From the NCBI GenBank assembly GCA_955652395.1, contig CATPBJ010000052.1:1-35317 (forward strand): 35,317 nucleotides of DNA, read 5' to 3'. Every line of letters begins with the position of its first letter. The first letter of the stretch is position 1. A program made the position numbers and the translations under genes. This DNA comes from an uncultured Terriglobales bacterium (GTDB lineage: Bacteria > Acidobacteriota > Terriglobia > Terriglobales > Acidobacteriaceae). Below are positions 8,757-33,776 of this stretch, in pieces. The notes under the pieces were generated by a model that saw nothing but the letters and a program-made list of their open reading frames with translations, searched no databases and had not been told where the DNA came from.

Positions 8757-9995
8757 TCACGCGGAAAGTGTGGCCAGCGCGTCGGCCAGCACCAGTGTCC
8801 CGCGGGCAATGTCTTCGGGAGATGCATACTCATCAGGACGATGGCTGTATCCGTTGCGACACGGGATAAACAACATCGCCACCGGCGCGATGAGGGACAT
8901 GAAAAGCGAGTCATGATAGGCCCGGCTGATCATGGGAAGGAACGCCTGCTGGTGCTTCCTACAGGCGTTAGAAAGAGCTTCGACGACAGAAGGCGCGGAT
9001 TCCGCCGGAGCATCCGCGTTCAGCGGTTCGATGTGAATTGCAACCCGCCGATTGGCGGATATCGCGTTACAGGTATTCTCCATCGCCCTGATCACGCCGT
9101 CGCGTCGCTCGGGATTCGTGTCGCGGATGTCGGCACTGAGCCGGACCCGGCTGGGAATGCTATTGATCGCGCCCGGAAACACTTCGCAAATGCCCACGGT
9201 CGCAACCGTATCAACGGCACCACTGCTTCGCGCCGCGTTCTCAATCGCCAGAATCAATTCCGCAGCCGCGCAAAGTGCGTCGTGCCGATCTGGCATGAGG
9301 ACTCCGCCGGCGTGTCCGCCGGCGCCTTCGATCGCAATCCGCATGCTGGCGGGTGCGGCAATGCTCGTAACCACTCCGAGCGGCGTCTGCTGACGTTCCA
9401 GAATCGGGCCTTGTTCGATGTGCAACTCGACAAACGCCTGGTAATACCCCCCGGGAAGCTTCACTTCATCGAGGTCTCCGCGGAATCCCGCCTTGCGGCG
9501 TACATCCTCGATCGATTCTCCGTCACCGTCCTTCAACCTTTTGGCAGCCTCGGCGGAAAGACTTCCGCTAAGTAACCGGCTGCCAAGGCATCCGATTCCA
9601 AAGCGTGTCGGCTCTTCCGAAGTAAAAACCAGCAGCTCAATCGAGTTCGTCGGACGGAAGCCCCCGCGCCGTAGCGCCCGTATCGCCTCGAGTCCTCCCA
9701 AAACTCCCACCACACCGTCGTATTTCCCGGCGTTCGGAATTGCGTCGATGTGGGAACCAGTACCGACCGCAGGAGCCGCCGGGTCTGAGCCATTCCACCG
9801 CGCAAAAGTATTTCCGATTGCATCCTGCCGCACCGTGAGTCCGGAGTCTTCACATCGCGCTCTCAGCCAGGCGCGGGCTTTAAGATCGGTGGGGGTAAAA
9901 ACGATTCTGGTAACGGCTGGTGGCTCCCCATCAGAAATCGCAGCCAGCACTTCGATCTCGGAGCACAGGCGGTCTCGATCAATTTCGAGATTCAT
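8757..9995 (-). CDS. Ureidoglycolate amidohydrolase, M20 family
   Basis: Predicted to hydrolyse (S)-ureidoglycolate to glyoxylate, CO2 and two ammonia, the last step of purine breakdown. It is 412 aa. M20 metal ligands are present: GSHIDAIPNAGKYDGVVG (80-97), FTSEEPTRFG (124-133), ELHIEQGP (190-197) and GYSHRPDEY (382-390). SHIDAIPNAGKYDG, SEEPTRFG, RAYHDSLFM (358-366) and the SPED tail match my memory of plant ureidoglycolate amidohydrolase rather than allantoate amidohydrolase, where the equivalents are SHLDTV, SEEEGVRF and GAGHDAM. The cluster has no ureidoglycolate lyase or dehydrogenase, which fits this role. The start ATG 9995 overlaps the stop of the ureidoglycine aminohydrolase gene (ATGA). 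An N-carbamoyl-amino-acid hydrolase is the alternative. It is the last gene of the purine operon. Confidence 0.85.
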   Translation of the reverse strand: MNLEIDRDRLCSEIEVLAAISDGEPPAVTRIVFTPTDLKARAWLRARCEDSGLTVRQDAIGNTFARWNGSDPAAPAVGTGSHIDAIPNAGKYDGVVGVLGGLEAIRALRRGGFRPTNSIELLVFTSEEPTRFGIGCLGSRLLSGSLSAEAAKRLKDGDGESIEDVRRKAGFRGDLDEVKLPGGYYQAFVELHIEQGPILERQQTPLGVVTSIAAPASMRIAIEGAGGHAGGVLMPDRHDALCAAAELILAIENAARSSGAVDTVATVGICEVFPGAINSIPSRVRLSADIRDTNPERRDGVIRAMENTCNAISANRRVAIHIEPLNADAPAESAPSVVEALSNACRKHQQAFLPMISRAYHDSLFMSLIAPVAMLFIPCRNGYSHRPDEYASPEDIARGTLVLADALATLSA

Positions 9996-10738
9996 GGGCG
10001 ACGATCAGCCAGCGGATGGCGGTTCCAGTCTTTGTAAATGAGATATTTCGCGGGCACTTTGCCGAGCGCTCCGAACCATTGCGGGCACCACGGGCCCATC
10101 CAGATAAAATCTCCTGCCGTCACCGGATACCACGAATCGCCCAAGCGGTAAATTCCCCCGCCTTCGAGCATGATGAGCCCGTGTTCCATCACGTGCATTT
10201 CGACCATGCTGAGCGCGGCACCCGGCTGGTACACCATGGTGTTTACAGCGAAGTCGAAACTCATCTCATCGGGAAGCAGACATTTAACCTGCAGGTCGGG
10301 ATCATCTCCGAGGGGATGCGAAGAGACAGCATCCTCATTCGATACCAGTAAGCGCGGCGAGTGGACTGAGTCGAGCGCCTGGTACAGCTTTTCGATGACA
10401 GCCACACGGCTCGTCTTCGCAGCCACGACGCGGTGCCGCGAGCCTTCAGGCAAATAAGCATAGCCGCGTCTGCCCAATTCGTTTCGCTGGCCCTCGACTT
10501 CCAGAGCGACTGCACCCTCGATCACAAACACAAAACGCTGAGCCGCTGTGCTGCCCAGTTCACCGCCCGCTTCGAACTCAGCCGTGTATTGGGTGAACTT
10601 CGCGCCCATGGCCGGACCCGCATGCACAATCGCGGAGCATGCCTTCATGCCCGGCAGCCTGGTACTGACGAAAGTGTCAGCAGTCAGTAGTAGATGATTG
10701 GGTTGTTGAGAACTTCGCGTCTGGCCAAGGTTATGCAC
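9992..10738 (-). CDS. allE: (S)-ureidoglycine aminohydrolase
   Basis: Converts (S)-ureidoglycine to (S)-ureidoglycolate and ammonia using Mn2+ in a bicupin fold. The chosen start is GTG 10738, with GAAGGA six bases before it; it overlaps the upstream stop by 8 bases and gives 248 aa (E. coli AllE is about 260). A longer frame from 10804 would add a Cys-rich, unrelated segment. The N-terminal HNLGQTRSSQQPNHLLLTAD and GPAMGAKFTQYTAEFEAGGE are hallmark AllE sequence. The second cupin has VYQPGAALSMVEMHVMEHGL with Glu/His metal ligands, then GDFIWMGPWCPQWFGALG. It lies between two M20 amidohydrolases that make its substrate and use its product, a complete three-step segment. Confidence 0.93.
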   Translation of the reverse strand: MHNLGQTRSSQQPNHLLLTADTFVSTRLPGMKACSAIVHAGPAMGAKFTQYTAEFEAGGELGSTAAQRFVFVIEGAVALEVEGQRNELGRRGYAYLPEGSRHRVVAAKTSRVAVIEKLYQALDSVHSPRLLVSNEDAVSSHPLGDDPDLQVKCLLPDEMSFDFAVNTMVYQPGAALSMVEMHVMEHGLIMLEGGGIYRLGDSWYPVTAGDFIWMGPWCPQWFGALGKVPAKYLIYKDWNRHPLADRRP

Positions 10739-12023
10739 GACACATCCTTCTTTGAAGTGTGGGCGAAGAAGCCAGCTGATCGAGCAGGTGCAAACCGCAT
10801 TCAATCGCCTTGGCTACATCCTCAGTCGCGACTGATTCGGCCGGGTGGTGGCTGATCCCGCCCGGAGTGCGCAGAAAAATCATGGCAGCAGGAACTTTCT
10901 CGGCCAGGATCATCGCGTCATGCCCGGCACCACTCACCATGCGATGCGGCTCACAACCTGTTTTTCGAATCGCCTGTTCGATTTCATAGATGAGAAACGG
11001 GTCCATCGACACGGCCTGCTGATTCAACATGATGTTCTGGCTTACAGACAACCCGCGCCGTCTCGCAATTTCTTCCGCCTCGCGAATAAGATTTTCCACC
11101 GCGCGGGTTCGAACCTGGTCCAACCCATGACGCACGTCGAGAGTCAGCCGAGCCTCGCCGGCAATGACGTTGGTGGCTCCGGGTTTGGCCTCTATTTTTC
11201 CAACCGTGGCCACCAGCCCTGAAATCTTGTTTGCTTCCCGTTCAACCGCGGTAGTCCACTCCGCCGCGCCTGCGATTGCATCGTATCGAAGATGCATTGG
11301 CGTTGTACCAGCATGGTTGGCCCGGCCAACGAATGTGAACTCCAACCGGCTCTGGCCAGCGATCGCATCCACGACTCCCAGCGGTCGCTTCCGTGCCTCC
11401 AAAACCGGACCTTGCTCGATGTGGAATTCCACGTAGCCAAAATTATCGTTCCCCAAAGCAGCCCGGGGAATCTCTTGGGGATTCAATCCAAACTCTTCTA
11501 TGGCGCTCCGAACGGAAATTCCTCGGGAATCTTTACGCTCCAGAAGCTCTCTATCGAGCCGTCCCGTCAGGGCCCGGCTGCCGACAAACGGCACGCCAAA
11601 GCGAACTCCTTCCTCCTCGGAGAAGCCAACGACCTCAATTCCGAACGGAAGCCGGCGTCCCTCGAGAGCTTCCAGCAATGCCACCGCAAGCACCACGCCG
11701 AGAACTCCATCGTAGGCTCCGGCATTGGGAACCGTGTCGAGATGTGAGCCCATAAGCAGTCGTGGCGCTTTGGATTCTGCCCCAGCATAGAATCCGCGCA
11801 AATTCCCAGCAGCGTCAATTCTCACCTCGGCTCCGATCGCCGCCATCCACACGGCGATTTCCCTGTGGCAATCATGCATGGGCGCGCAAAGAAAAGTCCG
11901 CCGCGTGCTGCCTGTATCTTCACTGAAATGCGCCAGCTTCCGACACCGGGAGATGACGTCTTCCGCGCGACTTGTAGTCTCGACCGTTGTCCGCACTGGG
12001 ATTCTATTGTTGGCGATAAACAC
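10731..12023 (-). CDS. allC: Allantoate amidohydrolase, M20 family
   Basis: Hydrolyses allantoate to (S)-ureidoglycine, CO2 and ammonia. It is 430 aa from GTG 12023, 13 bases after the urate hydroxylase stop; the ribosome site is weak (GGCGAGAA), and a later GTG at 11996 is possible. Metal-site motifs are GSHLDTVPNAGAYDGVLG (92-109), SEEEGVRFG (135-143), HIEQGP (201-206) and ISHHPAES near the C-terminus. The dimerisation-domain motif GRANHAGTTPM (233-243) and the SGAGHDAMILA motif fit bacterial AllC. The N-terminal CRKLAHFSEDTGSTRRTFL is also AllC-like. It is the paralogue of the M20 gene two positions downstream, which has the plant-UAH-like signature, so the two are assigned different steps. 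N-carbamoyl-amino-acid hydrolase is a less likely alternative. Confidence 0.88.
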   Translation of the reverse strand: MFIANNRIPVRTTVETTSRAEDVISRCRKLAHFSEDTGSTRRTFLCAPMHDCHREIAVWMAAIGAEVRIDAAGNLRGFYAGAESKAPRLLMGSHLDTVPNAGAYDGVLGVVLAVALLEALEGRRLPFGIEVVGFSEEEGVRFGVPFVGSRALTGRLDRELLERKDSRGISVRSAIEEFGLNPQEIPRAALGNDNFGYVEFHIEQGPVLEARKRPLGVVDAIAGQSRLEFTFVGRANHAGTTPMHLRYDAIAGAAEWTTAVEREANKISGLVATVGKIEAKPGATNVIAGEARLTLDVRHGLDQVRTRAVENLIREAEEIARRRGLSVSQNIMLNQQAVSMDPFLIYEIEQAIRKTGCEPHRMVSGAGHDAMILAEKVPAAMIFLRTPGGISHHPAESVATEDVAKAIECGLHLLDQLASSPTLQRRMCRA

Positions 12024-12036
12024 TTTCTCGCCAGCT

Positions 12037-12849
12037 TCAAGTCTGGCGGATTATCTTCGCCGCTACCCAACCGATGAGTACGAGGCCGACCAAAATTTCC
12101 CAGCTATAAGTGTTCCCGTAAGTGGCCACAGGGAAATGATTGCTGAGCATAATAAAAACGACTGGCACCGCCATGAACGTATTGTGCTTGGATCGCAGCT
12201 TGGCCTGAGCCCCGAGCGCCGCGTCGAACGTAGCGCCGGTTGCGGCCGCGGCGATCATCTTGCGCTGGGCGGGAAGAATTCGCTCCCACACGTTGAAGGT
12301 CATAATGGTTCCGAACATTGCCCCAAGGTGGATGTAAGCGGCGCGCCCGCTGAAGACGTGCACAAGTCCGAATGCGATCGCGGCCGTCATGATAAGGGAA
12401 AATATCGCAAACCCAGTTTCGGACTTCCCCAGGAACGACCGCAGCGCCAGATCATAGAGGAGCCAGCCAAAGACCAGCACACTGATTCCGATGGCGATGC
12501 CACGCCCCTGCGAAATTTCCGCCACGTCAGGATCAATCAGTCCTCCGCTGAGGTAATAGACCAGGAACATCAGCACCATTCCGCTCAGCCAGGTCAGGGC
12601 GGCTTCCCAGCGGAACCAGTGCACTCGCTCGGGACCGACTTGCAGCGATTTCTGTTTTTCGACAGTGTAAAAGCCCCCGCTGTGGACCATCCAAAGCGCG
12701 GCGGGCGTGCCCTTAGCGTTCTTCTCAAGCTTTCCGAAGTGGCCGTCCAGCCAGGTGAAGTAGTAGGTCTGGCCGACCCACATGATGGCGGCAAAAACAT
12801 GAAACCACCGCACACTAAGATTGAGCCACTCTCGGACGGAAGACGTCAC
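12037..12849 (-). CDS. puuD: Membrane urate hydroxylase, PuuD-type, without cytochrome c domain
   Basis: Oxidises urate to 5-hydroxyisourate. The start GTG 12849 has a strong GAGGAG eight bases upstream. The 270-aa protein is a multi-helix membrane protein: VRWFHVFAAIMWVGQTYYFT starts it, the loop LWMVHSGGFYTVEK follows, and helices lie near 84-102, 115-133, 145-165, 172-190 and 243-262. The AAYIHLGAMFGTIMTFNVW and LRSKHNTFMAVPVVFIMLSN segments are typical of the DUF989/urate-oxidase N-terminal domain. Characterised PuuD has a C-terminal cytochrome c (CxxCH) after this domain; here the protein ends directly after the last helix with IIRQT, and no CxxCH is present. The electron acceptor must then be another protein. 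Its place between HIU hydrolase and AllC supports the urate role. Confidence 0.88.
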   Translation of the reverse strand: MTSSVREWLNLSVRWFHVFAAIMWVGQTYYFTWLDGHFGKLEKNAKGTPAALWMVHSGGFYTVEKQKSLQVGPERVHWFRWEAALTWLSGMVLMFLVYYLSGGLIDPDVAEISQGRGIAIGISVLVFGWLLYDLALRSFLGKSETGFAIFSLIMTAAIAFGLVHVFSGRAAYIHLGAMFGTIMTFNVWERILPAQRKMIAAAATGATFDAALGAQAKLRSKHNTFMAVPVVFIMLSNHFPVATYGNTYSWEILVGLVLIGWVAAKIIRQT

Positions 12850-12888: not shown

Positions 12889-13233
12889 TCAAGTTCCCCG
12901 GTAAGTCGTGTATCCATAAGGACTCAACAGGAGCGGGATGTGTAAATGTGATTCACCATCCCGCACCTGAAACGTAACTTCCACGAGCGGATACAAGGCT
13001 GTGGTTTGCCCGGCCGCGAAATAGCTTTCCGTATCAAATGCCAGACGGTAAAGCCCAGCCGAAAGAACGGTATCGTCTCGCAACAACTGGACGCATCGTC
13101 CGTCCTGATCGGTGCGCGACGAGCCCAGCAGCAACCAGTTGCCGGAGGCCTCTTGCCGTTCCAGGCGTACAGGCAGGTCTTGCGCCGGCTTGCCCTGGGC
13201 GGTGTCCAGAACGTGAGTTGTGATGCGTTTCAT
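12889..13233 (-). CDS. uraH: 5-hydroxyisourate hydrolase
   Basis: Transthyretin-related protein that hydrolyses 5-hydroxyisourate to OHCU. ATG 13233 overlaps the stop of the OHCU decarboxylase gene (ATGA) and gives 114 aa, the standard length. The N-terminal ITTHVLDTAQGKPAQDLPV holds the first active-site His; the C-terminal HLHIPLLLSPYGYTTYRGT holds the second His and the tetrapeptide that ends all members. That tetrapeptide is YRGT here rather than the usual YRGS, a conservative change. Two further in-frame ATGs upstream (13245 and 13275) lie inside the preceding gene and are not needed. The tetramer is expected in the cytoplasm. It accelerates a step that otherwise runs spontaneously and loses stereochemistry. 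Confidence 0.93.
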   Translation of the reverse strand: MKRITTHVLDTAQGKPAQDLPVRLERQEASGNWLLLGSSRTDQDGRCVQLLRDDTVLSAGLYRLAFDTESYFAAGQTTALYPLVEVTFQVRDGESHLHIPLLLSPYGYTTYRGT

Positions 13234-13742
13234 CCCGAGAGCCATTTTGTCAGCCGGATACGAGTGATCTGGCACTGCTGCTCCGCCGCTTCCAGAAGTT
13301 CGGTGCGCTCGTCATTCTGCAACCGGCGCCGCAGAATCTCCAGAATTTCCGGCGCCGACTTCCCCGTAGCGCACACGATGAAGATATGGCGAAACCGTTG
13401 CTCATATTCCTGATTCGCCTCCGCCAGCGCGATCATTACAGCGTCACCGGCAGCTGCGACGTTTCTTTGCTCCTGCGCTGACCAGGTGGCAGACTGAGCT
13501 GAAGCAGATTGCGCTGCGTGCGACTGGCCAATTCGAGGATGGCTATGGAACGCCTCCATCCAGTCGACTGCAGTCAGATTACTCCAGGTTTCGTCGGACG
13601 CTGCTAGCAGAGTGGTTACGTCCTGGAACGGTCTTCGGACCGCCATCCCGCTAGCCCAGGCCTTCGAGCCGCAGCAAGGGAGGATTTCCTTCACCGCATT
13701 CTCGACCGGAAGCCGATTCCATCGTGCCAGCACTCCGCTCAT
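13230..13742 (-). CDS. uraD: OHCU decarboxylase
   Basis: Converts 2-oxo-4-hydroxy-4-carboxy-5-ureidoimidazoline to (S)-allantoin. It is 170 aa, normal length, from ATG 13742 with GGCGAG eight bases upstream. The catalytic His lies in AFHSHPRIGQ; SAQEQRNVAAA supplies the conserved Glu/Gln; YEQRFRHIFIVCATGKSAPE is the strand-helix that holds the substrate Arg; and the C-terminal EILRRRLQNDERTELLEAAE is typical. The stop overlaps uraH, and only two bases separate it from the xanthine dehydrogenase FAD subunit. Separate uraD and uraH genes are the common bacterial arrangement, while some species fuse them. Confidence 0.93.
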   Translation of the reverse strand: MSGVLARWNRLPVENAVKEILPCCGSKAWASGMAVRRPFQDVTTLLAASDETWSNLTAVDWMEAFHSHPRIGQSHAAQSASAQSATWSAQEQRNVAAAGDAVMIALAEANQEYEQRFRHIFIVCATGKSAPEILEILRRRLQNDERTELLEAAEQQCQITRIRLTKWLSG

Positions 13743-13744
13743 GT

Positions 13745-14611
13745 TCAGTTCTCGCCGATCTTCTCAAGGAATTCTGCCACCAGATTCCCCGCAACTGCCG
13801 CCCGATATCTCGCGGTCGATCGAATGTCATCGATCGGTTGAATCTCCGCGATTGCCACCCTCTTTGCCGAAACCAGGAGCGACGGCTCGACCGGCTTTCC
13901 TGTCACCAGGCGTTCCGTTTCCGCCAAACGCAGCGGGACCGGCGCCACGCTCCCGAGTGCGATACGGACATCTTCAACCACTCCGCTGGCGCGCCGGCCC
14001 AGCGCCGCGATGCACACTTTGGAAATGGCCTGCGCGTTGCGCGCTCCAACTTTGCGCGTATAGGCGAGATAGCCCGAGAATCGCCGCGCCAGGCAGACCG
14101 CTCGAACGAGTTCATCCGAGGCCAGTTTCGTCTTCTTGTACCCTGTGTGAAAGTCCTTGTAGGGCACCCTCCGCTCGCCGCGAACTGATATGAGAATAAG
14201 TTCGGCGTCGTACACCAACAGCGCAGGAAGGGAGTCAGCCGCCGGCGATGCATTTACGATATTGCCGCCGAGCGTGCCACGATTCTGGTTCGCAATTCCG
14301 CCAGTCCACGCGGCCGCACGGGCCAGGAGCGAGAACTCACTTTGCACGACCTCATGCTCGCGCAGGTCAGTGTAGGTGCATCCCGCGCCGATACGAATTT
14401 CCTCCGGCGACACTTCAATACGCCGCAGCTCGGGAAGATTCCAGATGCTGACCAGTTTTCGTGCCGGAAGTTTTCCGGCAGCGTACTGCACCATCACATC
14501 CGTGCCGCCGGCGATCGGCAGCCAGGCGCCGGGCTCGGCAGCCAATAGCGATACCACTGCCTGCAAGCTGGCGGGCGCGACTAACTGGTAGTCGGCTGGA
14601 TTCGACCTCAT
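13745..14611 (-). CDS. xdhB: Xanthine dehydrogenase FAD-binding subunit
   Basis: Passes electrons from the iron-sulfur centres to FAD and on to NAD or another acceptor. It is 288 aa with the CO-dehydrogenase/xanthine-dehydrogenase flavoprotein fold: PIAGGTDVMVQ (32-42) and NRGTLGGNIVNASPAADSLP (110-129) bind FAD. A C-terminal CO_deh_flav_C domain begins after FSGYLAYTRKVGARNAQAIS. The start ATG 14611 overlaps the iron-sulfur subunit stop (ATGA). It lacks the [4Fe-4S]-binding Cys cluster found in 4-hydroxybenzoyl-CoA reductase, so it is of the ordinary XDH type. The gene symbol follows the common three-subunit naming; letters vary between species. Confidence 0.92.
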   Translation of the reverse strand: MRSNPADYQLVAPASLQAVVSLLAAEPGAWLPIAGGTDVMVQYAAGKLPARKLVSIWNLPELRRIEVSPEEIRIGAGCTYTDLREHEVVQSEFSLLARAAAWTGGIANQNRGTLGGNIVNASPAADSLPALLVYDAELILISVRGERRVPYKDFHTGYKKTKLASDELVRAVCLARRFSGYLAYTRKVGARNAQAISKVCIAALGRRASGVVEDVRIALGSVAPVPLRLAETERLVTGKPVEPSLLVSAKRVAIAEIQPIDDIRSTARYRAAVAGNLVAEFLEKIGEN

Positions 14612-15111
14612 GCTGCGGCCCTGCGCCGCGCCGCTTCCGCCACAGCTTCAACAATCTGGATGTAGCCGGTGCAGCGGCAAAGATTTCCCGAAAGTCCTTC
14701 CCTGATCTCCTCTGTTGTGGGATTAGGCTTTCGTCGCAGCAGATGATGGGCTGCGAGAATCATTCCCGGAGTGCAAATGCCGCACTGCGCTCCACCACTT
14801 TTGAGAAAAGCCTCCTGCAGAACATCCAACTGCACCCCCGCGGCCAGTCCTTCGATGGTAACGATGTCTGCATCCTTGGCCTGAAGAACAGGTACGAGGC
14901 AGCTATTCACCAGCGCGTCATTCAGCAACACGGAGCAGGAGCCGCACTCGCCTTCGCCACATCCCTCTTTTGCACCGGTCAATCCCAGCTGGTGCCGCAA
15001 TACGTCCAGCAATCTCTCCATTGGATAGGCGCGCACGGTTTTCAGCTCGCCGTTCACCGTCAATGAGACCTCGTGTAAGGCGCGAATCTCCAATGAGAGC
15101 GACTCGGTCAT
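14608..15111 (-). CDS. xdhC: Xanthine dehydrogenase 2Fe-2S subunit
   Basis: Small electron-transfer subunit of 167 aa. The plant-ferredoxin-type cluster is held by Cys51, 56, 59 and 71 (EGCGEGECGSC ... NSC); the second cluster is held by Cys110, 113, 145 and 147 (QCGICTPGM ... LCRCTGY). All eight ligands are present. ATG 15111 follows GGTGGAG at five bases and overlaps the stop of the molybdopterin subunit gene. The first 14 residues are an extension before the beta-grasp domain and may be dispensable. In E. coli naming this is XdhC; the unrelated MoCo-inserting XdhC chaperone of other bacteria is not encoded in the window. Confidence 0.92.
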   Translation of the reverse strand: MTESLSLEIRALHEVSLTVNGELKTVRAYPMERLLDVLRHQLGLTGAKEGCGEGECGSCSVLLNDALVNSCLVPVLQAKDADIVTIEGLAAGVQLDVLQEAFLKSGGAQCGICTPGMILAAHHLLRRKPNPTTEEIREGLSGNLCRCTGYIQIVEAVAEAARRRAAA

Positions 15112-17363
15112 CGCACTCCACCGACGGACTGCGGCTCACGCTTTGCCAGAAGCGCTTCGAATACGTCCTCGGGAAGCAGTGGAATCGAATCGAAAGGAAC
15201 CTTAAGCGCGTCTTCCACCGCATTCACGATGGCCGGAGCCGGACCATCCATCGGCAGCTCGCCGATTCCTTTCGCGCCAAACGCCCCGTGAACATTGCCC
15301 ATTTCTTCGAAGAACACCCGAACAACAGGAAGGTCGGCGGAAGTTGGCATGATGTAGTTCGTCATCTGGCCGTTTTGCATGCGCCCATTTTGCCAAATCA
15401 CTTTCTCGTAGAGCGTATATCCGATGCCTTGCGCGACGCCGCCGGCGATTTGCCCGCGGGCCAAGACCGGGTGTAACACCTTACCAACTTCCTGCAGCGC
15501 CAGGAAGTCGTCCACCGACACGTTGTAGGTCGTCATATCAACCGTCGCTTCTGCGACATAGACCGCCCAGGCAAACGCCGCGTAAGCCTCCCCGCGATAC
15601 TTGTCATCATCCCAGAACACATCGGCTGGCGCCTCGTAGCGTGCCCACGACCGGAATTGTCCGTGCGCCGCAACCTGAGTCCGGCACGCCGAGCGGAACT
15701 GTTCGGCAGAGTATGAATCTCCAAGCAGGCCGCTTCCCATCAGAGTCTGCTTGATTCCCAGCGCAGCCGATTGCACCAGTTTGCCCACGACCATGACGGT
15801 TCGCGACGCTACCGTGGGGCCGCTGTTCGGCACCTGGTCCGTATCTGCCTGCGCAATTTCGACGTTCTCGTAAGGCAATCCCAGCGTCTCGGCCGCGATC
15901 TGGCAAAGAACAGTTTTCGTTCCCTGGCCAAATTCTGTGCTCGAAACTAGGACTTTTATAGTTCCATCGGCGCATCCCTCCACCCCAACCACCGAGCTGA
16001 GATTGCGCTCGCCCGATCCGGTGAATCCCGCACCGTGCAAGAACGCCGCGATGCCGATCCCCTTCCGACTCGTGCCCAGCTCATTCTCCTTGGCGAAACG
16101 CTGCTTTTTAGCGTGATAGTCGGAGAGTTCCAGTGCACGGTCGAGAAGTCTTACCAGATCGAGGGGCTCGCGCACTGTCTGTTCTGTGGTTGTCATCTGC
16201 CCGGGTTGCAAAAAGTTTCGCTTCCGGATCTCGACCGGTGAGAGCCCCACCACCTGCGCGATGCGATCCATGTGCCGCTCCAGCGCAAACAGACTTTGCG
16301 GAGCGCCGAAGCCGCGAAATGCCCCGTGGGGTGGAGCATTGGTGGCTACGGCCTTGGCGGTGATCCGGACGTTAGGCCAATAATAGGCGCCGCCGGCATG
16401 GATGGTGGCGCGTGAAAGCACCACCGGGGACAGAGTTACGTAGGCCCCGCCGTCGATGGTCAATTCAATTTCGCCACCCAAGATCCTTCCGTCTTTACTC
16501 AGCGCCGTGCGATGGCGGGTTCGCGAAGGATGCCGCTTGGTAGTGGCCGCCATGTCTTCCAAGCGGTCATAAATGATTTTCACGGGTCGTCCGCATTTGA
16601 TTGCCAGCAGTGCAGCGTGCGCCGCAATCATCGACGGATATTCTTCCTTCCCACCGAAGGCTCCCCCCGTTTCCATTTGTACGACGCGAACTTTGTCGGC
16701 GGTCAAGTTGCAGAGCGCCATCAAAGCTTTGTGTACATAGAAGGGACACTGCAACGAGCCCCACACGGTCATCCCTTGCTGCGCATCGAAGCTCGCGATC
16801 ATGCCATTATTCTCGATATAAAGCTGCTCCTGCGCGCCTGTCTTGTATTCACCTTCGACGATGTAGTCGGCCTTCTTCCAGATGCCGTCGACGTCGCCTT
16901 TCTCCACTAAGTAAGACTTGAAGATGTTGTCCGAGCCCCAAATGACTTCAGATCGGGTCTCACTCTGTTCCACGGTGAACAACGCCGGAAGCTGGTCGTA
17001 TTCGATGGAGACCGCCGCCACGGCCTGAGGAAGAAGATGCCGGTCCGAGTGTGCCAGCAGAAGAATCGGCTCTTCGGGATGATTCACGACCCCGTCCGCC
17101 AGGCAGGGCTGATCGTTGGCAATCAGCGCAATGACATTTTTTCCTGGAATGTCCCTAGCCGTGACGACAATGAATTCGTCCCAGGCGATGCCCGGTCCAA
17201 ATGTAATTTTCCCGATCTTGCTCCGCGGAACCTGACTGCGAACCGTCGCACCGAAGAGCATGCCGGGCAGCGTCAGATCATCGACGTACTGCGCTCGTCC
17301 CGTGACTTTGTCGCGCCCCTCTTTGCGTGGAACGGATACGCCGACGATATGGTCACCGGTCAT
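15108..17363 (-). CDS. xdhA: Xanthine dehydrogenase molybdenum-binding subunit
   Basis: Oxidises hypoxanthine to xanthine and xanthine to urate at a molybdopterin centre. It is 751 aa, the full length of the separate large subunit. The three residues that define purine-oxidising enzymes can be placed by motif: Glu after FGGK (236-240, bovine Glu802), Arg in FRGFGAPQ (349-356, bovine Arg880) and the base Glu in GIGELP (about 702, bovine Glu1261). This argues for a purine substrate rather than CO or aldehydes. The N-terminal VGVSVPRKEGRDKVTGRAQY and DDLTLPGMLFGATVRS are the usual fold start. It is 32 bases after allantoinase, and no clear ribosome site precedes ATG 17363. It heads the XDH genes in the order Mo, Fe-S, FAD. 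Confidence 0.94.
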   Translation of the reverse strand: MTGDHIVGVSVPRKEGRDKVTGRAQYVDDLTLPGMLFGATVRSQVPRSKIGKITFGPGIAWDEFIVVTARDIPGKNVIALIANDQPCLADGVVNHPEEPILLLAHSDRHLLPQAVAAVSIEYDQLPALFTVEQSETRSEVIWGSDNIFKSYLVEKGDVDGIWKKADYIVEGEYKTGAQEQLYIENNGMIASFDAQQGMTVWGSLQCPFYVHKALMALCNLTADKVRVVQMETGGAFGGKEEYPSMIAAHAALLAIKCGRPVKIIYDRLEDMAATTKRHPSRTRHRTALSKDGRILGGEIELTIDGGAYVTLSPVVLSRATIHAGGAYYWPNVRITAKAVATNAPPHGAFRGFGAPQSLFALERHMDRIAQVVGLSPVEIRKRNFLQPGQMTTTEQTVREPLDLVRLLDRALELSDYHAKKQRFAKENELGTSRKGIGIAAFLHGAGFTGSGERNLSSVVGVEGCADGTIKVLVSSTEFGQGTKTVLCQIAAETLGLPYENVEIAQADTDQVPNSGPTVASRTVMVVGKLVQSAALGIKQTLMGSGLLGDSYSAEQFRSACRTQVAAHGQFRSWARYEAPADVFWDDDKYRGEAYAAFAWAVYVAEATVDMTTYNVSVDDFLALQEVGKVLHPVLARGQIAGGVAQGIGYTLYEKVIWQNGRMQNGQMTNYIMPTSADLPVVRVFFEEMGNVHGAFGAKGIGELPMDGPAPAIVNAVEDALKVPFDSIPLLPEDVFEALLAKREPQSVGGVR

Positions 17364-17395: not shown

Positions 17396-18745
17396 CTACC
17401 GCTGCCATTCCCGTCCCCTCGGCTCCCCGGGAAATTCGCCTCCCACAAACACCGGCCGTCCTCTCAGATATGTGGCCTTCACCACTCCGCGCAGGGTTTC
17501 GCCCAGATAAGGCGACAGTGGAAATCGGTAATGCAGCCGTTCTGGTGTCACCTGAAATGCGGCCTCCGGATCGAACACAACCAGGTCCGCATCGTAGCCT
17601 GCGGCTATGCGACCCTTGCGCGCTGCGCAGCCCGCCAGTCGCGCCGGACCCTCGGCCATCCAGCGGACAATATCCGCGAGCGCAAATCCCCGTCGGCTGG
17701 CCTCGGTCCAAATCACTGCGAGCGACACCGAAAGGCTTGAAATACCACCCCACGCCGTCCTGAAGCTTCCCTCTTCCAGTCGCTTCATGGCCGGCGGACA
17801 GGGAGAATGATCCGTGGCTACCAGATCGATGACTCCGTCGCTGAGCCCTTGCCACAATGCTTCGCGGTTTTCGCGGCTCCGGATCGGCGGCGCGCACTTG
17901 CACAAAGTCGCAGCGTCCGGAATATCTTCAGCGGCGAGATGCAGATAGTGCGGACAAGTTTCCACGCTCACCGCCAGTCCCTCGGAGCGGGACGCCCGCA
18001 ACTCGGGTAGCGCTTGGCCGGTCGCGAGATGGACGATGTGCAGACGAAAATCATACTGTCGGCACAGCGACAACATCATTCGAATCGCCGACAGCTCGGC
18101 TTCGTCCGGCCGCGATTGCAGATAGGTTGAGTAACATCTCCAGTCGGCCTCACCCAGACGCTCGGTCGCTGTGTCTACCGGCCCGGCAAGTTCCGCATGA
18201 ACCAGTAGAGGCAGTCCAGTCCGCGCCAGGTGAGGCAGCGCCGCCCGCAGATCTTCCTCGCCGACCATGGTAAAGCCATCGATCCCGGGATGAATCAGAA
18301 AGCACTTGAACCCCAGTACACCTGCAGTGGCAAGAGCTTCGATATCTGCTTGGTTGCCTTGAACCACGCCGCCCCAGGCGGCCCAATCCACCCAGCACCT
18401 GCTTTGCGCCGCGGAACGTTTCGCCTCGAGCGCGACAACCGTGGTCGTGGCCGGCAGACAGTTTAGAGGCATGTCCACCAAGAGGGTGTAGCCGCCTGCT
18501 GCCGCGGCACGCGTCGCGGTGTTGAAGCCCTCCCAGTCTGCCCGGCCGGGATCATTGATGTGTACGTGAGAATCGACCAGCCCAGGAAGAATGGCGGCAT
18601 TGCCGAAATCGTGAATGTCCGCGCCGGAACTTATTTCCGCGGGAGGAACAACCTCTCGTATCTGTTCACCCTCTACGAGAACGGCGGCCGGCCGCACTCC
18701 TTCAGGAGTGACCACCTGGCGGGAAACGAAAGCCTGCAAGCTCAT
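17396..18745 (-). CDS. allB: Allantoinase
   Basis: Opens the hydantoin ring of allantoin to give allantoate. It is 449 aa in the cyclic amidohydrolase family. Binuclear metal ligands are visible: DSHVHINDPGR (58-68, two His), the carboxylated Lys in GFKCF (147), His183 in LVHAE, His239 in LHIVHLAT and Asp312 in ATDHSP. VETCPHYL (261-268) and the RGRPVFVGGEF C-terminal beta domain are AllB-type. Dihydropyrimidinase and dihydroorotase are alternatives, but NDPGR and the purine operon favour allantoinase. ATG 18745 is the first gene of the minus-strand purine operon. A TTGAAA-17-TAGGCT promoter lies just upstream. Confidence 0.92.
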   Translation of the reverse strand: MSLQAFVSRQVVTPEGVRPAAVLVEGEQIREVVPPAEISSGADIHDFGNAAILPGLVDSHVHINDPGRADWEGFNTATRAAAAGGYTLLVDMPLNCLPATTTVVALEAKRSAAQSRCWVDWAAWGGVVQGNQADIEALATAGVLGFKCFLIHPGIDGFTMVGEEDLRAALPHLARTGLPLLVHAELAGPVDTATERLGEADWRCYSTYLQSRPDEAELSAIRMMLSLCRQYDFRLHIVHLATGQALPELRASRSEGLAVSVETCPHYLHLAAEDIPDAATLCKCAPPIRSRENREALWQGLSDGVIDLVATDHSPCPPAMKRLEEGSFRTAWGGISSLSVSLAVIWTEASRRGFALADIVRWMAEGPARLAGCAARKGRIAAGYDADLVVFDPEAAFQVTPERLHYRFPLSPYLGETLRGVVKATYLRGRPVFVGGEFPGEPRGREWQR

Positions 18746-18788
18746 GGTGTCAGTCGCCGTCCCGCAAGTAAGTGGACATCAGGAGCCG

Positions 18789-18817
18789 AGCCTATTCCGC
18801 CAGCTTTACTTTTTCAA
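18789..18817 (-). promoter_or_regulatory. Candidate promoter of the purine operon
   Basis: On the minus strand TTGAAA (18817-18812) and TAGGCT (18794-18789) are separated by exactly 17 bases and lie about 45 bases before the allantoinase start. The -35 matches consensus at five of six positions, the -10 at three. No riboswitch-like fold or known operator is visible nearby. Confidence 0.4.
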
Positions 18818-18850
18818 CTCGCCGTTCTCGAGAGTTCAAGCTGAGAAAAG

Positions 18851-18880
18851 TTTCGCGCACTTCCGTGCTCCGCTTATACT
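18851..18880 (+). promoter_or_regulatory. Candidate promoter of the guanine deaminase gene
   Basis: TATACT (18875-18880) is a good -10; TTTCGC (18851-18856) is a weak -35 at an 18-base spacing. It lies about 65 bases before ATG 18945 and points away from the purine operon promoter. The intergenic region of 199 bases thus probably holds divergent promoters, and a shared regulator could act there. Confidence 0.4.
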
Positions 18881-18944
18881 GGCTTGCTTGCAGACTGAGG
18901 CGGGCGCAGAATCCGCGCCAGCTCACGCGCCATCCGGCCCAAAC

Positions 18945-19412
18945 ATGAACAGCCCTTTCATGGTGCGCGCCATTCAACTCGCAGTTGAAAATGTCCGCTC
19001 CGGACAGGGCGGGCCATTCGGCGCGGTAATCGTGAAAGATGGCACCATCATCGCCGAGGGCGCGAATCAGGTAACTTTGACCAACGATCCCACTGCGCAC
19101 GCCGAAGTGCTCGCTATCCGCGTGGCTTGCCGGAAGCTCGGCCTGTTCGAACTGAAAGGCTGCGAACTCTACACCTCGTGCGAACCTTGTCCCATGTGCC
19201 TGGGCGCAATTTACTGGACGCGCCTTTCTCACGTTTACTACGGCAGCCAGGCCGCGGACGCATCCCATGCCGGGTTCGACGACTCGTTTATCTACCGCGA
19301 AATCGCCCAGCCGCATGCCGACCGCGGAATACCTATGGTTCAGATGATGCGCGAAGAGGCGCTGGCCGCGTTTCGCGCCTGGCAGGAAAAGCCCGACAAG
19401 ATACGCTATTGA
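18945..19412 (+). CDS. guaD: Guanine deaminase, cytidine-deaminase fold
   Basis: Deaminates guanine to xanthine, which feeds xanthine dehydrogenase. The chosen start is ATG 18945 (MNSPFMVRAIQLAVENVRSG), giving 155 aa, the size of Bacillus GuaD. The frame is open upstream, but that part is non-homologous. Zinc ligands are HAEVLAIR (His, with the catalytic Glu) and CEPCPMCLGAIYW (two Cys). The GGPFGAVIVKDG start and the C-terminal HAGFDDSFIYREIAQPHADR are GuaD-like, and distinguish it from the tRNA adenosine deaminase TadA. No Shine-Dalgarno sequence precedes the ATG (CATCCGGCCCAAAC). It is divergent from the main operon and upstream of the purine permease. Confidence 0.88.
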   Translation: MNSPFMVRAIQLAVENVRSGQGGPFGAVIVKDGTIIAEGANQVTLTNDPTAHAEVLAIRVACRKLGLFELKGCELYTSCEPCPMCLGAIYWTRLSHVYYGSQAADASHAGFDDSFIYREIAQPHADRGIPMVQMMREEALAAFRAWQEKPDKIRY

Positions 19413-19469
19413 CGCCGCCCAGCCGTGGCTAAATGAGTATTGCTGACCATTTCAATCGAGGGAAGACGA

Positions 19470-20765
19470 TTGCTCGATCGCTATTTCAAGCTCACGGCAA
19501 ACCAAACCACCGTGAAGCAAGAATTTCTGGGCGGCCTTACCACCTTCCTGACGATGGCCTACATCATCGTCGTCAACCCGCAAATCCTGGCCCAGGCGGG
19601 GATGCCGGTCGAGGGCGTGGTTTTTGCCACGTGCCTCTCGGCCGCGATTGGCACTCTGGTCATGGGCCTTTACGCCAACTATCCCATCGCGCTCGCTCCC
19701 GGAATGTCGCTCAATGCCTACTTCACGTATTCCGTTTGCCTGAGCATGCACGTTCCGTGGCGCACCGCGCTCGGCGTAGTCTTCTTCTCCGGTGTTCTTT
19801 TCCTCGTGCTCACGGTCACACGCGTCCGCGAACAGATTGTCAACGGCATGCCCGATTGCCTGAAGCATTCCACTGCGACCGGAATCGGCTTTTTTATCGC
19901 ATTCGTCGGGCTGCGGAATGCGAAACTTGTGGTCGCAAATCCGGCTACTCTTGTCGGCCTGGGAAATTTCGCCGACCGCGAAGTGCAGACCGCCTGCTTC
20001 GGTCTCGCCTTGACACTGATCCTGATGGCGCGAAAGATCAACGGCGGTATCCTCATCGGTATCGTCGGCACCGCGCTCCTCGGTATGCTGCGCGGCATCT
20101 CGAGCTGGCCCTCTTCCATCGTTTCCATGCCTCACCCATCGTCTACTTTTCTGCAACTTGATTTTCGCGGAGCCATCCATCTCGGGTTTCTAGAAATCCT
20201 GTTTGCCTTCTTGTTCGTGGACCTCTTCGACAACGTGGGCACCCTCGTGGGAGTGTGCGAGCAGGGCGGATTCATCAAAGACGGAAAAATACCGCGCGTC
20301 GGTAGGGCGCTGCTGGCCGACGCTACCGGAACTATTTTTGGATCGCTGGCGGGAACCTCCACAGTGACCAGCTACATCGAAAGCGTCGCCGGTATAGCGG
20401 TTGGCGCCCGCACCGGACTCAGCAACGTATTCGTCGCGGTGCTTTTTCTGCTCGCCATGTTCTGCTCGCCGCTGGCAACCGCAATTCCGGGCTACGCCAC
20501 CGCCCCTGCTCTCATCCTGGTGGGCGCGTTAATGACGCAGTCCATCGCGCACGTCGATTGGGCAGAATTCAGCGAAGCCGTGCCTGCATTCATCACCATG
20601 CTGGCCACGCCTCTGACTTTCAGCATAGCCACCGGCCTCAGCTTGGGACTCATTTCCTACACCGTGGTGAAGATTGCAGCGGGGAAGTTTCGCGAGGTCA
20701 ACCTGCTGGTCTGGATCCTCACCCTTCTGTTCATCCTGCGCTACATCTATCTTGCGACGGCATAG
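19470..20765 (+). CDS. NCS2 purine permease (AzgA/PbuG type)
   Basis: Proton-coupled importer for guanine, hypoxanthine or adenine. The start was set at TTG 19470 because GAGGGA lies six bases upstream and the protein then begins MLDRYFKLTANQTTVKQEFL, the typical opening of this family. It has 431 aa and about 12 to 14 membrane segments. Hallmarks are GGLTTFLTMAYIIVVNPQIL, ALAPGMSLNAYFTYSVCL, TATGIGFFIAFVGLRNAKLV, FVDLFDNVGTLVGV and SLAGTSTVTSYIESVAGIAV, all typical of AzgA/PbuG. A urate/xanthine transporter (UacT/UapA) would belong to a different NCS2 branch. It follows guanine deaminase by 57 bases and probably forms one transcript with it. Its stop is eight bases from that of the convergent acetate kinase. 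Confidence 0.9.
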   Translation: MLDRYFKLTANQTTVKQEFLGGLTTFLTMAYIIVVNPQILAQAGMPVEGVVFATCLSAAIGTLVMGLYANYPIALAPGMSLNAYFTYSVCLSMHVPWRTALGVVFFSGVLFLVLTVTRVREQIVNGMPDCLKHSTATGIGFFIAFVGLRNAKLVVANPATLVGLGNFADREVQTACFGLALTLILMARKINGGILIGIVGTALLGMLRGISSWPSSIVSMPHPSSTFLQLDFRGAIHLGFLEILFAFLFVDLFDNVGTLVGVCEQGGFIKDGKIPRVGRALLADATGTIFGSLAGTSTVTSYIESVAGIAVGARTGLSNVFVAVLFLLAMFCSPLATAIPGYATAPALILVGALMTQSIAHVDWAEFSEAVPAFITMLATPLTFSIATGLSLGLISYTVVKIAAGKFREVNLLVWILTLLFILRYIYLATA

Positions 20766-20773
20766 CAGGAGGC

Positions 20774-21979
20774 TCAATGCAGCAGCTTCCAGCAATCGCG
20801 CGCAATCTCCAAATCTTCCCCGGCTCGAATGAGCAAGACGCGAACCGCCGAACCTGGATCAGCGATGTCCTCGTCCGGCGGCGATTCAGCATTCTTTTTC
20901 GGATCAAGTTTCACCCCGACATACTCAAGGTTCTGGCAAGCGGCCGCGCGCACCTCGGGTGAATGCTCACCGACTCCGGCCGTGAAAACCAGGGCATCGA
21001 TACCGCCCAGCGCCGCGATCATTGCGCCGATCCCCGCGCGTAGGCGGTGGACATAGATTTCAAGCGCAAGCGTGGCTCGCTCGTGCCCATTCTTTACGGC
21101 AGCCAGGACTTCGCGCATGTCTGCGGATACGCCGGAGATTCCCAGCAGGCCGGAGTGTTCATTGAGAAGTTCATCGAGCTGTTCTCCTGTCGGCTGGCTC
21201 TGACGCATCAGGTAGGTGAGGATTCCGGGATCAACCGATCCGGAACGAGTGCCCATCATCAAACCCTCTAACGGCGTGAACCCCATGGTGGTATCTACGC
21301 TCCGCCCGTCTCGAATGGCCGCCAGAGAACAACCGTTTCCCAGATGGCAACTCACCAGCCTGAACGACTTCGAATCTCGGCGCAGCAGGTGCGCCGCGCG
21401 CTGAGCGCAATACTTGTGATTGATGCCATGAAAGCCATAGCGGCGGATTCCCGCCGCGAACCATTCATACGGTCCCGGGTAAACCGCCGCGGAAAGTGGC
21501 ATTTTCTTGTGAAAGCCCGTGTCGAAAACAGCAACCTGAGGCACCACGCCTAGCAGATTCTCGATGATTTCGACGCCCTCGAGTTCCGCGCGATTGTGGA
21601 GAGGAGCGAAGGCTGAAACCGCGGCAATCGCCGATTTCACTTCGGCGGTGATTACGACCGGATCTGCGAATGCCGGCCCACCATGCACTATCCGGTGTCC
21701 GACCACGTCAATCTCCGAGAGCGAGGAGACGGCGCTGGCTTCTCCTTTCCACAAAGAATCCAGCAGGCGGCCGGTCGCTCGGGCGCGAGAGGAGATCTTG
21801 ATCTGTTCCCTTCGGCTGAACCCGCGCCCGTTCTTGATCTCGGCCGTACCTGCCTCGCCTTCCCATTCGATTGTCGCCTGCCAAAGCCAGGCCGGCGGAT
21901 CCTCAGGAAGAACGTCGCCGATTTCGTACAGGCAGCTCTTCTGGCTGCTGGAACCCGAATTCAGCACCAGAACTTTCAT
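20774..21979 (-). CDS. ackA: Acetate kinase
   Basis: Turns acetyl phosphate and ADP into acetate and ATP. It is 401 aa, full length. KVLVLNSGSSSQKSCLYE (2-19) and VVGHRIVHGGPAF are the acetate/acetyl phosphate side; HLGNGCSLAAI and FTPLEGLMMGTRSGSVDPGI bind phosphate and nucleotide; FTAGVGEHSPEVR near residue 330 is the ADP site. Its start is three bases after the phosphoketolase stop, so the two are co-transcribed and probably translationally coupled. The product of phosphoketolase is acetyl phosphate, so this enzyme directly recovers ATP. The C-terminus has a variable PKKNAESPPDEDIADP loop, which is normal. Confidence 0.94.
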   Translation of the reverse strand: MKVLVLNSGSSSQKSCLYEIGDVLPEDPPAWLWQATIEWEGEAGTAEIKNGRGFSRREQIKISSRARATGRLLDSLWKGEASAVSSLSEIDVVGHRIVHGGPAFADPVVITAEVKSAIAAVSAFAPLHNRAELEGVEIIENLLGVVPQVAVFDTGFHKKMPLSAAVYPGPYEWFAAGIRRYGFHGINHKYCAQRAAHLLRRDSKSFRLVSCHLGNGCSLAAIRDGRSVDTTMGFTPLEGLMMGTRSGSVDPGILTYLMRQSQPTGEQLDELLNEHSGLLGISGVSADMREVLAAVKNGHERATLALEIYVHRLRAGIGAMIAALGGIDALVFTAGVGEHSPEVRAAACQNLEYVGVKLDPKKNAESPPDEDIADPGSAVRVLLIRAGEDLEIARDCWKLLH

Positions 21980-21982
21980 CGG

Positions 21983-24385
21983 TTAGTAAGGCCAGGTCCA
22001 GTCGCGCACTTCCTGCATATCATCCCCATGCTGCTCGATGTATCGCTTGTGCTCCACCAGTTGGTTGCGCAGGAACTGTTTGAAGTGGGCACCTACGCGT
22101 TGCAGCCTGGGCACGCGGTCGACGACATCGCCCGCCAGATGATAGCGGTCGATCTCATTGAGCACGGTCATATCGAAAGGCGTAGTTGTCGTGCCTTCTT
22201 CTTTGTAGCCACGAACGTGGAAGCTATCGTGATTGTGCCGGCGATAAGTGAGTCGATGAATCAGCCAGGGATAACCGTGGTAGGCGAATATCACGGGCTT
22301 GTCAGTGGTGAACATCGAGTCGAAATCGCGGTCGGAGACACCGTGCGGGTGCTCCAAAGGAGGTTGGAGCGTCATCAGATCCACCACGTTCACAAAACGG
22401 ATCTTTATATCGGAGAAATGCTTGCGGAGTAGGTCAACCGCGGCCAGGGCTTCGAGAGTAGGCACGTCGCCGGCGCAAGCGATCACCACATCGGGCTCGC
22501 TGTTCTGATCGGTACTGGCCCATGACCAGATTCCGATCCCATTGGTGCAGTGTTCGATGGCGGCGTCCATTTCGAGGTATTGCAAAGATGGTTGCTTTCC
22601 CGCCACGATCACATTGATGTAATGGCGGCTGCGCAGGCAGTGATCGGCAACCGAGAGCAGCGTGTTGGTATCGGGCGGGAGATAAACGCGCACAACATCT
22701 GCTTTCTTGTTCATCACAAAATCAATAAAGCCCGGGTCCTGATGACTGAAGCCGTTGTGGTCCTGACGCCAGACATGTGAGGTCAGCAGATAATTTAGCG
22801 ATGCGATCGGCCGTCGCCAGGGGATATGGCGGGTTACCTTCAGCCACTTAGCATGCTGATTAAACATGGAATCGACGATGTGAATGAAAGCCTCATAACA
22901 CGAGAAAAAGCCATGCCGCCCGGTAAGCAGATAACCCTCAAGCCAGCCCTGGCACATGTGCTCGCTGAGCATTTCCATGACCCGTCCGGTGGTGGACTCG
23001 TGCTCGTCCGTGGACAAAAGCGGTTCCATCAAGATTTTGTCGGTCACTTCGTAGAGCGCATCCAGCCGGTTGGAAGCGGTTTCATCGGGACCGAATACCC
23101 GGAAGTTTTTCGCATCCAGGTTCAGCTTCATGATGTCACGCAAGAAGGTGCCGAGCACCCTGGTTGCCTCGGCAGTCTCCGTACCCGGCCTTGCCACCTT
23201 CACAGCGTAGTCACAAAAATCCGGCATGAGCAAATTCTTGAGCAACAAGCCGCCGTTGGCATGCGGGTTGGCGCCCATCCGCCGCTCACCCTTGGGCGCG
23301 AGCTCAGCCAGTTCTGGACGAAACTCACCCTTCTCGTCGAAAAGTTCTTCGGGAAGGTAGCTCTTCATCCAGTCCTCCAAGATTTGGAGATGACCCGGCT
23401 TGGTAAACAAATCCGTAACTGGCACCTGGTGCGCACGCCATGTACCTTCCACTGGTTTACCATCCACGAACTTCGGTCCGGTCCAGCCTTTCGGCGTGCG
23501 CATCACGATCATCGGCCAGATCGGACGCGTCTTGGAGCCACGCGAACGCGCATTCTCCTGAATCGCCCTGATCTCGTCGACTATGGTTTCAAGCGTCGCA
23601 GCCATGATCTGGTGCATGGGCTCGGGCTCATGGCCCTCAACAAAGTAAGGCTTGTGACCGTATCCGTTGAACAGTTGGGTAAGTTCCTGGTCGCTCAAAC
23701 GCCCCAGTACAGTGGGGTTCGCAATCTTGTAACCGTTCAGGTGGAGAATTGGCAGCACCGCGCCATCGCGCTCCGGATTAAGAAATTTGTTGGAGTGCCA
23801 GCTGGTAGCTAGCGCACCCGTCTCTGCTTCACCATCGCCAACCACGCAACAGGCCAGCAGGTCGGGATTATCAAACACCGCTCCGTAGGCATGGGCAATG
23901 GAATAACCCAGTTCTCCGCCCTCGTTGATCGAGCCCGGCGTTTCCGGAGCGGCATGACTGGGAATTCCTCCGGGAAAGGAGAACTGCTTGAACAGCTTTT
24001 GCATGCCCTCTTCGTTTTGTTGGATATCGGGGTAGAGCTCTGTATAAGTGCCTTCCAAATAGGTATTGGCAACAATGCCCGGGCCGCCATGTCCAGGTCC
24101 AGTAATGTTGATCACGTTCAAACCGTATTTTTTGATAAGCCGATTAAAATGCACATAGACGAAGTTCAGCCCTGGAGTAGTGCCCCAGTGTCCAAGCAGT
24201 CGGGGCTTTACGTGCTCAATCTTCAGGGGCTCGCGCAAGAGCGGATTCTCATACAGATAAATCTGGCCCACGGAAAGATAGTTGGCTGCGCGCCAATAGG
24301 CATTGATCTTGCGTAGTTCTTCCGAAGTAAGAGGCTGGTTGGAAACTCTGGAGAGGGTGGAATCGGCGGAGGCGACGGGGGTCAT
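21983..24385 (-). CDS. xfp: Phosphoketolase
   Basis: A thiamine-diphosphate enzyme that cleaves xylulose 5-phosphate (and possibly fructose 6-phosphate) with phosphate into acetyl phosphate and glyceraldehyde 3-phosphate or erythrose 4-phosphate. It is 800 aa, the usual length. GPGHGGPG (96-103) and GDGEAETG (183-190) are the thiamine diphosphate/Mg sites; [25 protein letters not shown] and the C-terminal [20 protein letters not shown] are family hallmarks. ATG 24385 follows AGGAG at about ten bases. With acetate kinase it gives an ATP-yielding route from sugar phosphate to acetate. Whether it accepts fructose 6-phosphate cannot be told from the sequence. Confidence 0.95.
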
Positions 24386-31123: not shown

Positions 31124-31126
31124 GAG

Positions 31127-33031: not shown

Positions 33032-33735
33032 TGCTGCACCGTTTCATACGGCTGTAAGTCCGGGTTTGCCGTGTCGCCGACCATCCAGCCGTCGCGCAAT
33101 TGAATAGTGCGAGTGCCATAGGCTGCGTTAACTTCTGAGTGGGTCACCTGAACAATCGTCGTTCCCTGCTGGTTCAGCTCGCGAAAGAGTTCCATGATTT
33201 CCTTAGCCTGTGACGAGTGCAAATTCCCCGTGGGCTCGTCGGCAAGCAGGAGCGCGGGTTTGTGGATGACGGCGCGGGCAACTCCTACCAACTGCTGCTG
33301 TCCTCCGGAAAGCTGGCTGGGAAACAAATCTTTCTTGGCGACGATCTGGAACCGGTCGAGTGTGTCAGCCACCGGGCTCTGCCGCTGACCGCTTGGGACA
33401 TCTTTATAAGAGAGCGGCAGGTCAATGTTCTCGCGCACGGTCAGATCATCGAGCAAGTGATAGCTCTGAAACACCACGCCGATGTTGCGTTTGGCCAGCT
33501 CGCCACGCTGTTTACGCTTCATCTCATGGACGGCCTGCTCGCGAAACCAGTACTCTCCTCCCCACTGATCGTCGAGTAAGGCAAGCACATTTAACAGGGA
33601 AGACTTCCCTGCCCCGGACGGCCCCATGATAGTCACGAACTCACCTTGGCGAATCTCCAAATCGATGCGGCGCAAAACCCATGTTTGACCGGCGGCAGTT
33701 TTATAGCTTCGTTCGACATTCTTCAATTGAATCAT
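33028..33735 (-). CDS. ABC transporter ATP-binding protein (LolD/MacB type)
   Basis: A 235-aa ATPase with GPSGAGKSS (Walker A, about 39-47), FQSYHLLDDLTVRENI (Q loop), LSGGQQQ (signature), ALLLADEPTGNL (Walker B) and a final VTHSEVNAAYG (H loop). The signature LSGGQQQLVGVARA and the SSLLNVLALLDD start belong to the MacB/LolD/FtsE-like group that drives FtsX-type permeases. The final helix is followed by an extension (NPDLQPYETVQQ) that overlaps the next gene. It is 41 bases after the permease gene and overlaps TolC. The neighbour permease of the ADOP type is its likely partner. Confidence 0.93.
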   Translation of the reverse strand: MIQLKNVERSYKTAAGQTWVLRRIDLEIRQGEFVTIMGPSGAGKSSLLNVLALLDDQWGGEYWFREQAVHEMKRKQRGELAKRNIGVVFQSYHLLDDLTVRENIDLPLSYKDVPSGQRQSPVADTLDRFQIVAKKDLFPSQLSGGQQQLVGVARAVIHKPALLLADEPTGNLHSSQAKEIMELFRELNQQGTTIVQVTHSEVNAAYGTRTIQLRDGWMVGDTANPDLQPYETVQQ

Positions 33736-33776
33736 TTCACTCTCGCTTCAGAGATATCCATACTTACAGGAACGAA

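Follow-up and report, generated by a model that had tools for sequence, protein, structure and literature searches.

We analyzed a window of 35,317 nucleotides, contig C52 of the 4.42-Mb genome of a soil acidobacterium (234 contigs, 88% complete). The minus strand carries an intact open reading frame (ORF) at 8757-9995, which starts with ATG, includes its stop codon and encodes 412 amino acids; the plus strand is broken by stops over the same interval. The first-pass annotation of this DNA had given these coordinates exactly and had omitted the strand. The ORF closes an operon of ten genes, which occupies 18745 to 8757 of the minus strand and encodes, in this order, allantoinase AllB (17396-18745; TIGR03178, 535 bits, cut-off 358), three xanthine dehydrogenase subunits, OHCU decarboxylase UraD (13230-13742; TIGR03180, 160 bits, cut-off 139; PF09349), 5-hydroxyisourate hydrolase of the HIUase/transthyretin family (12889-13275; PF00576, E = 1.1e-38), a PuuD-type membrane urate oxidase (12037-12849; PF06181, E = 2.5e-86), allantoate amidohydrolase (AAH, the AllC function; 430 amino acids, 10731-12023; NF006775, 553 bits, cut-off 479), the cupin (S)-ureidoglycine aminohydrolase AllE (ORF 9992-10804; TIGR03214, 298.6 bits, cut-off 200) and the 8757-9995 product, which we assign as an M20 di-metal (S)-ureidoglycolate amidohydrolase (UAH) from phmmer, a tree, residues found only in UAHs and an AlphaFold model.

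The xanthine dehydrogenase subunits were named from their best families and their context. The molybdopterin subunit, of XdhA/PucD type (15108-17363), scored highest with TIGR03196 (435 bits, below cut-off), and the FAD subunit, of XdhB type (13745-14611), with NF043083 (206 bits, below the cut-off of 310). The [2Fe-2S] subunit, of XdhC/PucE type (14608-15111), has Fer2 and Fer2_2 matches and 176 bits with TIGR03198, also below cut-off, and its role is assigned by context. At 9995-9992 the UAH start codon and the AllE stop share the letters ATGA. The AAH stop is likewise overlapped by a GTG at 10738, the probable start of AllE. AllC and AllE, which the first-pass annotation had placed alongside, are adjacent on the same strand. 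Upstream of the operon and divergent from it, the plus strand carries a putative guanine deaminase of the CMP/dCMP deaminase fold (ORF 18615-19412; PF00383, E = 9.6e-26), whose substrate is suggested by context and whose true start is probably internal to the ORF, and a purine permease of the xanthine/uracil permease family (19440-20765; PF00860, E = 2.4e-51). The PuuD-type urate oxidase is only 270 amino acids long and matches Urate_ox_N only, with no cytochrome c domain seen, and the PuuD match is absent at the equivalent place in several related operons (L017-L020, L024, L028, L031, and L032).

Searching all solved structures with phmmer returned Arabidopsis UAH (AtUAH, PDB 4pxe) as the best match, with 441 bits and an E value of 3e-131, which excludes a chance match. 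The next family, Geobacillus L-N-carbamoylase, reached 254 bits, and AllC, the allantoate amidohydrolase of E. coli, 170 bits. An AlphaFold (AF2) model of the window UAH, built from 31 orthologs, reached a pLDDT of 91, and its top PDB matches were AtUAH with glyoxylate or (S)-ureidoglycolate (4pxe/4pxb), at 51% identity. By these comparisons the 8757-9995 product is an ortholog of Arabidopsis UAH, the kinship that the first-pass annotation had proposed. Among the NCBIfam models, only the generic TIGR01879 ("hydantoinase/carbamoylase family amidase") passed its cut-off. No UAH-specific model was among the matches of the window protein or of all 31 orthologs, which match the same families. As NCBIfam lacks a UAH model, bacterial UAHs receive generic names.

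To place the protein in its superfamily, we used IQ-TREE on 73 rows (LG+C20+F+G4, PMSF), in addition to a quick tree of 78 rows. AtUAH and 34 bacterial proteins, including the window UAH, form one clade (bootstrap 100, SH-aLRT 100) with a long stem (0.80), apart from the operon AAHs and the carbamoylases; the L-N-carbamoylase 3n5f lies outside. This is the placement by which the first-pass annotation had proposed to judge its claim. In the free tree AtUAH is nested among the bacterial UAHs (88/88), and confining the bacterial UAHs to a single clade gives an equally good tree (p-AU 0.57). Plant UAH may thus branch from among the bacterial UAHs or beside them, and the data fit both equally. Plasmid-borne homologs, all less than 60% identical, were used as outgroups only. 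E. coli AllC forms a long branch outside the operon AAH clade, and the tree holds no plant AAH sequences, so the name of the window AAH rests on NF006775 and context.

Could the gene instead encode a second allantoate amidohydrolase, a paralog of AllC whose activity is redundant or a backup? The two enzymes have the M20/hydantoinase-carbamoylase superfamily in common, and the window UAH reaches 381 bits with the "allantoate amidohydrolase" subfamily model NF006771, just below the cut-off of 399. However, the operon already has an AAH that exceeds its curated cut-off, and the window UAH falls short of the corresponding models, with 342 bits for NF006775 (cut-off 479) and 223 bits for the AllC model TIGR03176 (cut-off 598). 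It also lies outside the AAH clade, and forcing AtUAH into that clade was rejected (p-AU 2e-8) at a cost of 280 log-likelihood units. As the residues at two active-site positions also differ from those of AAHs (see below), we regard a second AllC as very improbable and rejected it on the tree.

Slightly less probable still is an N-carbamoyl-amino-acid hydrolase, such as an ErtE-like N-carbamyl-glutamate hydrolase or an L-carbamoylase, recruited to the operon by chance. The best NCBIfam score of the window UAH is indeed with ErtE (NF058540), and an ErtE-context protein encoded beside hutH and an amidohydrolase (L120) is sister to the UAH clade (96/89). Yet this score, 385 bits, is well under the ErtE cut-off of 520, the UAH clade is set off by its long stem and holds a biochemically characterized UAH, and the co-occurrence with AllE described below (12 of 12 genomes) would be unexpected for an enzyme acting on carbamoyl amino acids. 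The genes around the window UAH are purine genes and not those of ergothioneine use. These sub-cut-off scores, together with the position of the carbamoylases and ErtE outside the UAH clade, led us to reject this candidate. We conclude that the gene very probably encodes a genuine bacterial UAH, orthologous to the plant enzyme, that would catalyze the final reaction of an operon for complete purine catabolism without urea.

The active site separates UAHs from AAHs. Among the columns that UAH, AAH, and E. coli AllC have in common are H82, D84, D93, E127, E128, H192, R291, and H385, of which H82, D93, E127, E128, H192, and H385 are what we take to be the M20 metal-ligand and catalytic positions. 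The three motifs singled out by the first-pass annotation are all present: SEEPTRFG, which contains the catalytic E127 and E128, RAYHDSLFM (358-366), and GYSHRPDEY (382-390). Its claim that the active site departs from the AAH pattern is borne out by our comparison of alignment columns, in which Arg358, Tyr360, Leu233, Pro129, Pro215, and Ala85, among others, are identical in 35/35 UAHs (including AtUAH) and different in AAHs. Arg358 and Tyr360 stand where AAHs have Gly and Gly in the motif SGAGHDA, and Leu233 stands where AAHs have Pro in HAGTTPM; Pro129, Pro215, and Ala85 are replaced in AAHs by Gly, Gln, and Thr, respectively. Arg358, Tyr360, Leu233, Pro129, and Pro215 fall within or beside active-site motifs. 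Structural comparison of AtUAH with E. coli AAH reportedly traced specificity to the smaller active site of UAH, and a Tyr close to the HD motif, where AAHs have Gly, would fit such a site.

We scanned the genomes of 84,980 species and recovered 80 related loci, in Acidobacteriota, Verrucomicrobiota, Chloroflexota, Myxococcota (Sandaracinus), and Planctomycetota, with the nearest relatives by identity in Acidobacteriota. Because the scan used peptides of the window UAH, distant phyla may be under-sampled. The description of the gene as plant-like in a bacterium thus stands as to plant kinship and is too narrow as to range, as bacterial UAHs form a broad family that spans at least five bacterial phyla. 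AllE lies directly upstream of UAH in 64 of the 74 assessable loci, mostly with a gap of less than 60 bases, AAH lies upstream in 57/62, and AllB is nearby in 51/62. In five of the 10 exceptions (L044, L045, L048, L057, and L065) the locus does contain AllE, beyond the set distance, and a further locus (L058) has only xanthine dehydrogenase genes nearby. In four Opitutae/Pedosphaera loci (L043, L049, L052, and L053) we found a UAH homolog and no ureide gene nearby, so the gene context may have been lost or altered in some UAH members. These four homologs are 53-56% identical, and their neighbors include DUF885 with GMP synthase, DUF1015, or a DNA methylase and a GmrSD nuclease. On a contig labeled Betaproteobacteria (L028), the whole operon occurs at 66-76% identity and falls inside the Acidobacteriota clade; this contig is probably misbinned.

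In an evenly drawn sample of 199 Acidobacteriota genomes, UAH orthologs (at least 58% identity; the next best homologs reached at most 37%) were present in 12, and AllE exceeded its curated cut-off in exactly the same 12. If the two genes were independent and kinship is ignored, the probability of this coincidence is ~2e-19. The ureidoglycolate lyase AllA was found in none of the 12 UAH-bearing genomes and in only two of all 199. Urease alpha above cut-off (TIGR01792) was likewise detected in none of the 12; PF00449 urease matches in the source genome and its relatives were partial and weak, with nothing above the TIGR01792 cut-off. Allantoicase, searched for in the source genome and 30 relatives (including G007), was found in neither of the two genomes of this set that bear UAH. 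Absences in the source genome carry less weight because it is 88% complete, and the complete relatives G007 and G152 agree with them. At the level of genes, the plant-type route that the first-pass annotation had proposed in place of the AllA lyase is upheld, with AAH and AllE adjacent to UAH and neither AllA nor true urease found.

Gene identity, family placement, operon structure, co-occurrence, and the absence of AllA and urease are read here from sequence, and the reaction, metal, and stoichiometry of the bacterial enzyme would follow by analogy with the plant enzyme. Together with the divergent genes, the operon is predicted to specify every step from guanine and xanthine down to glyoxylate. 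Xanthine dehydrogenase would oxidize xanthine to urate, which PuuD urate oxidase, HIUase, and UraD would convert to (S)-allantoin. AllB would open the ring to give allantoate, AAH would convert allantoate to (S)-ureidoglycine, NH3, and CO2, and AllE would convert (S)-ureidoglycine to (S)-ureidoglycolate with release of NH3. The di-metal center of UAH (His82, Asp93, Glu128, His192, and His385), with Glu127 as general base, may then hydrolyze the ureido amide, yielding carbamate (CO2 and NH3) and hydroxyglycine, which would decay to glyoxylate and a second NH3. The plant enzyme is described as hydrolyzing the amide in this way, via hydroxyglycine (PMC3793230). Every nitrogen of the purine ring would be released as ammonia by this route. 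In the literature that we searched, we found no biochemistry for any bacterial UAH member.

Arabidopsis UAH (EC 3.5.1.116, formerly 3.5.3.19; PDB 4pxb/4pxc/4pxe) is the closest characterized system. It is 51% identical over the catalytic domain, agrees in the metal ligands, the catalytic Glu, and the Arg/Tyr/Leu positions found only in UAHs, and is likewise paired with AAH and AllE/UGLYAH. However, the bacterial protein lacks the N-terminal extension of the plant enzyme and begins directly with the catalytic domain, and its gene sits in a single operon with the whole pathway. E. coli AllC resembles the window UAH in its M20 fold, its di-metal center, and in acting on a neighboring ureide intermediate, but the two are only 28% identical, AllC carries the two glycines of SGAGHDA in place of Arg and Tyr, and the E. 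coli route ends with AllA (urea) or AllD rather than UAH. L-N-carbamoylase (3n5f, ~36% identity) and ErtE belong to the same superfamily and are the second-best structural and sequence relatives, in clades of their own. The lyase AllA/DAL3 (EC 4.3.2.3) acts on the same substrate as UAH but has an unrelated cupin fold and releases urea (PMC3793230).

UAH has already been stated to occur in "plants and bacteria" (PMC6320678), and a passage in PMC9667741 attributes to Yue et al. 2012 a transfer by which plants acquired AAH and UAH from bacteria; bacterial UAH is therefore a known kind of enzyme. The operon-level picture, an intact urea-free ureide pathway of plant type across bacterial phyla, seems unrecorded in the literature searched, as does the exact AllE-UAH linkage in Acidobacteriota. 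A 2025 survey of Acidobacteriota genomes reported "purine degradation to urea" (PMC11778308), which the genomes of the UAH-bearing lineages do not support. Soil bacteria with the operon would convert purines fully to ammonia and CO2, without urea or urease, and nitrogen-release modeling for them would change. We give roughly even odds to a wider reading, in which UAH was originally bacterial (at least five phyla), is tied to the urea-free ureide operon in Acidobacteriota, and gave rise to the plant gene, and in which the purine turnover of these soil bacteria feeds ammonia directly rather than urea, contrary to the survey. Rooting and dating the origin of plant UAH would need the bacterial set, and a model built on the Arg/Tyr motif would split UAHs from allantoate amidohydrolases.

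Elsewhere in the window, beyond the purine permease, a phosphoketolase gene and an acetate kinase gene are adjacent on the minus strand (20774-24385) and form a two-gene phosphoketolase-acetate kinase module. Further along the same strand (28303-35276), genes for a histidine kinase, a sigma-54 response regulator, an outer membrane efflux protein, an ABC ATPase, and a MacB-like permease all run in one direction, which we read as a regulated MacB-type export cluster.
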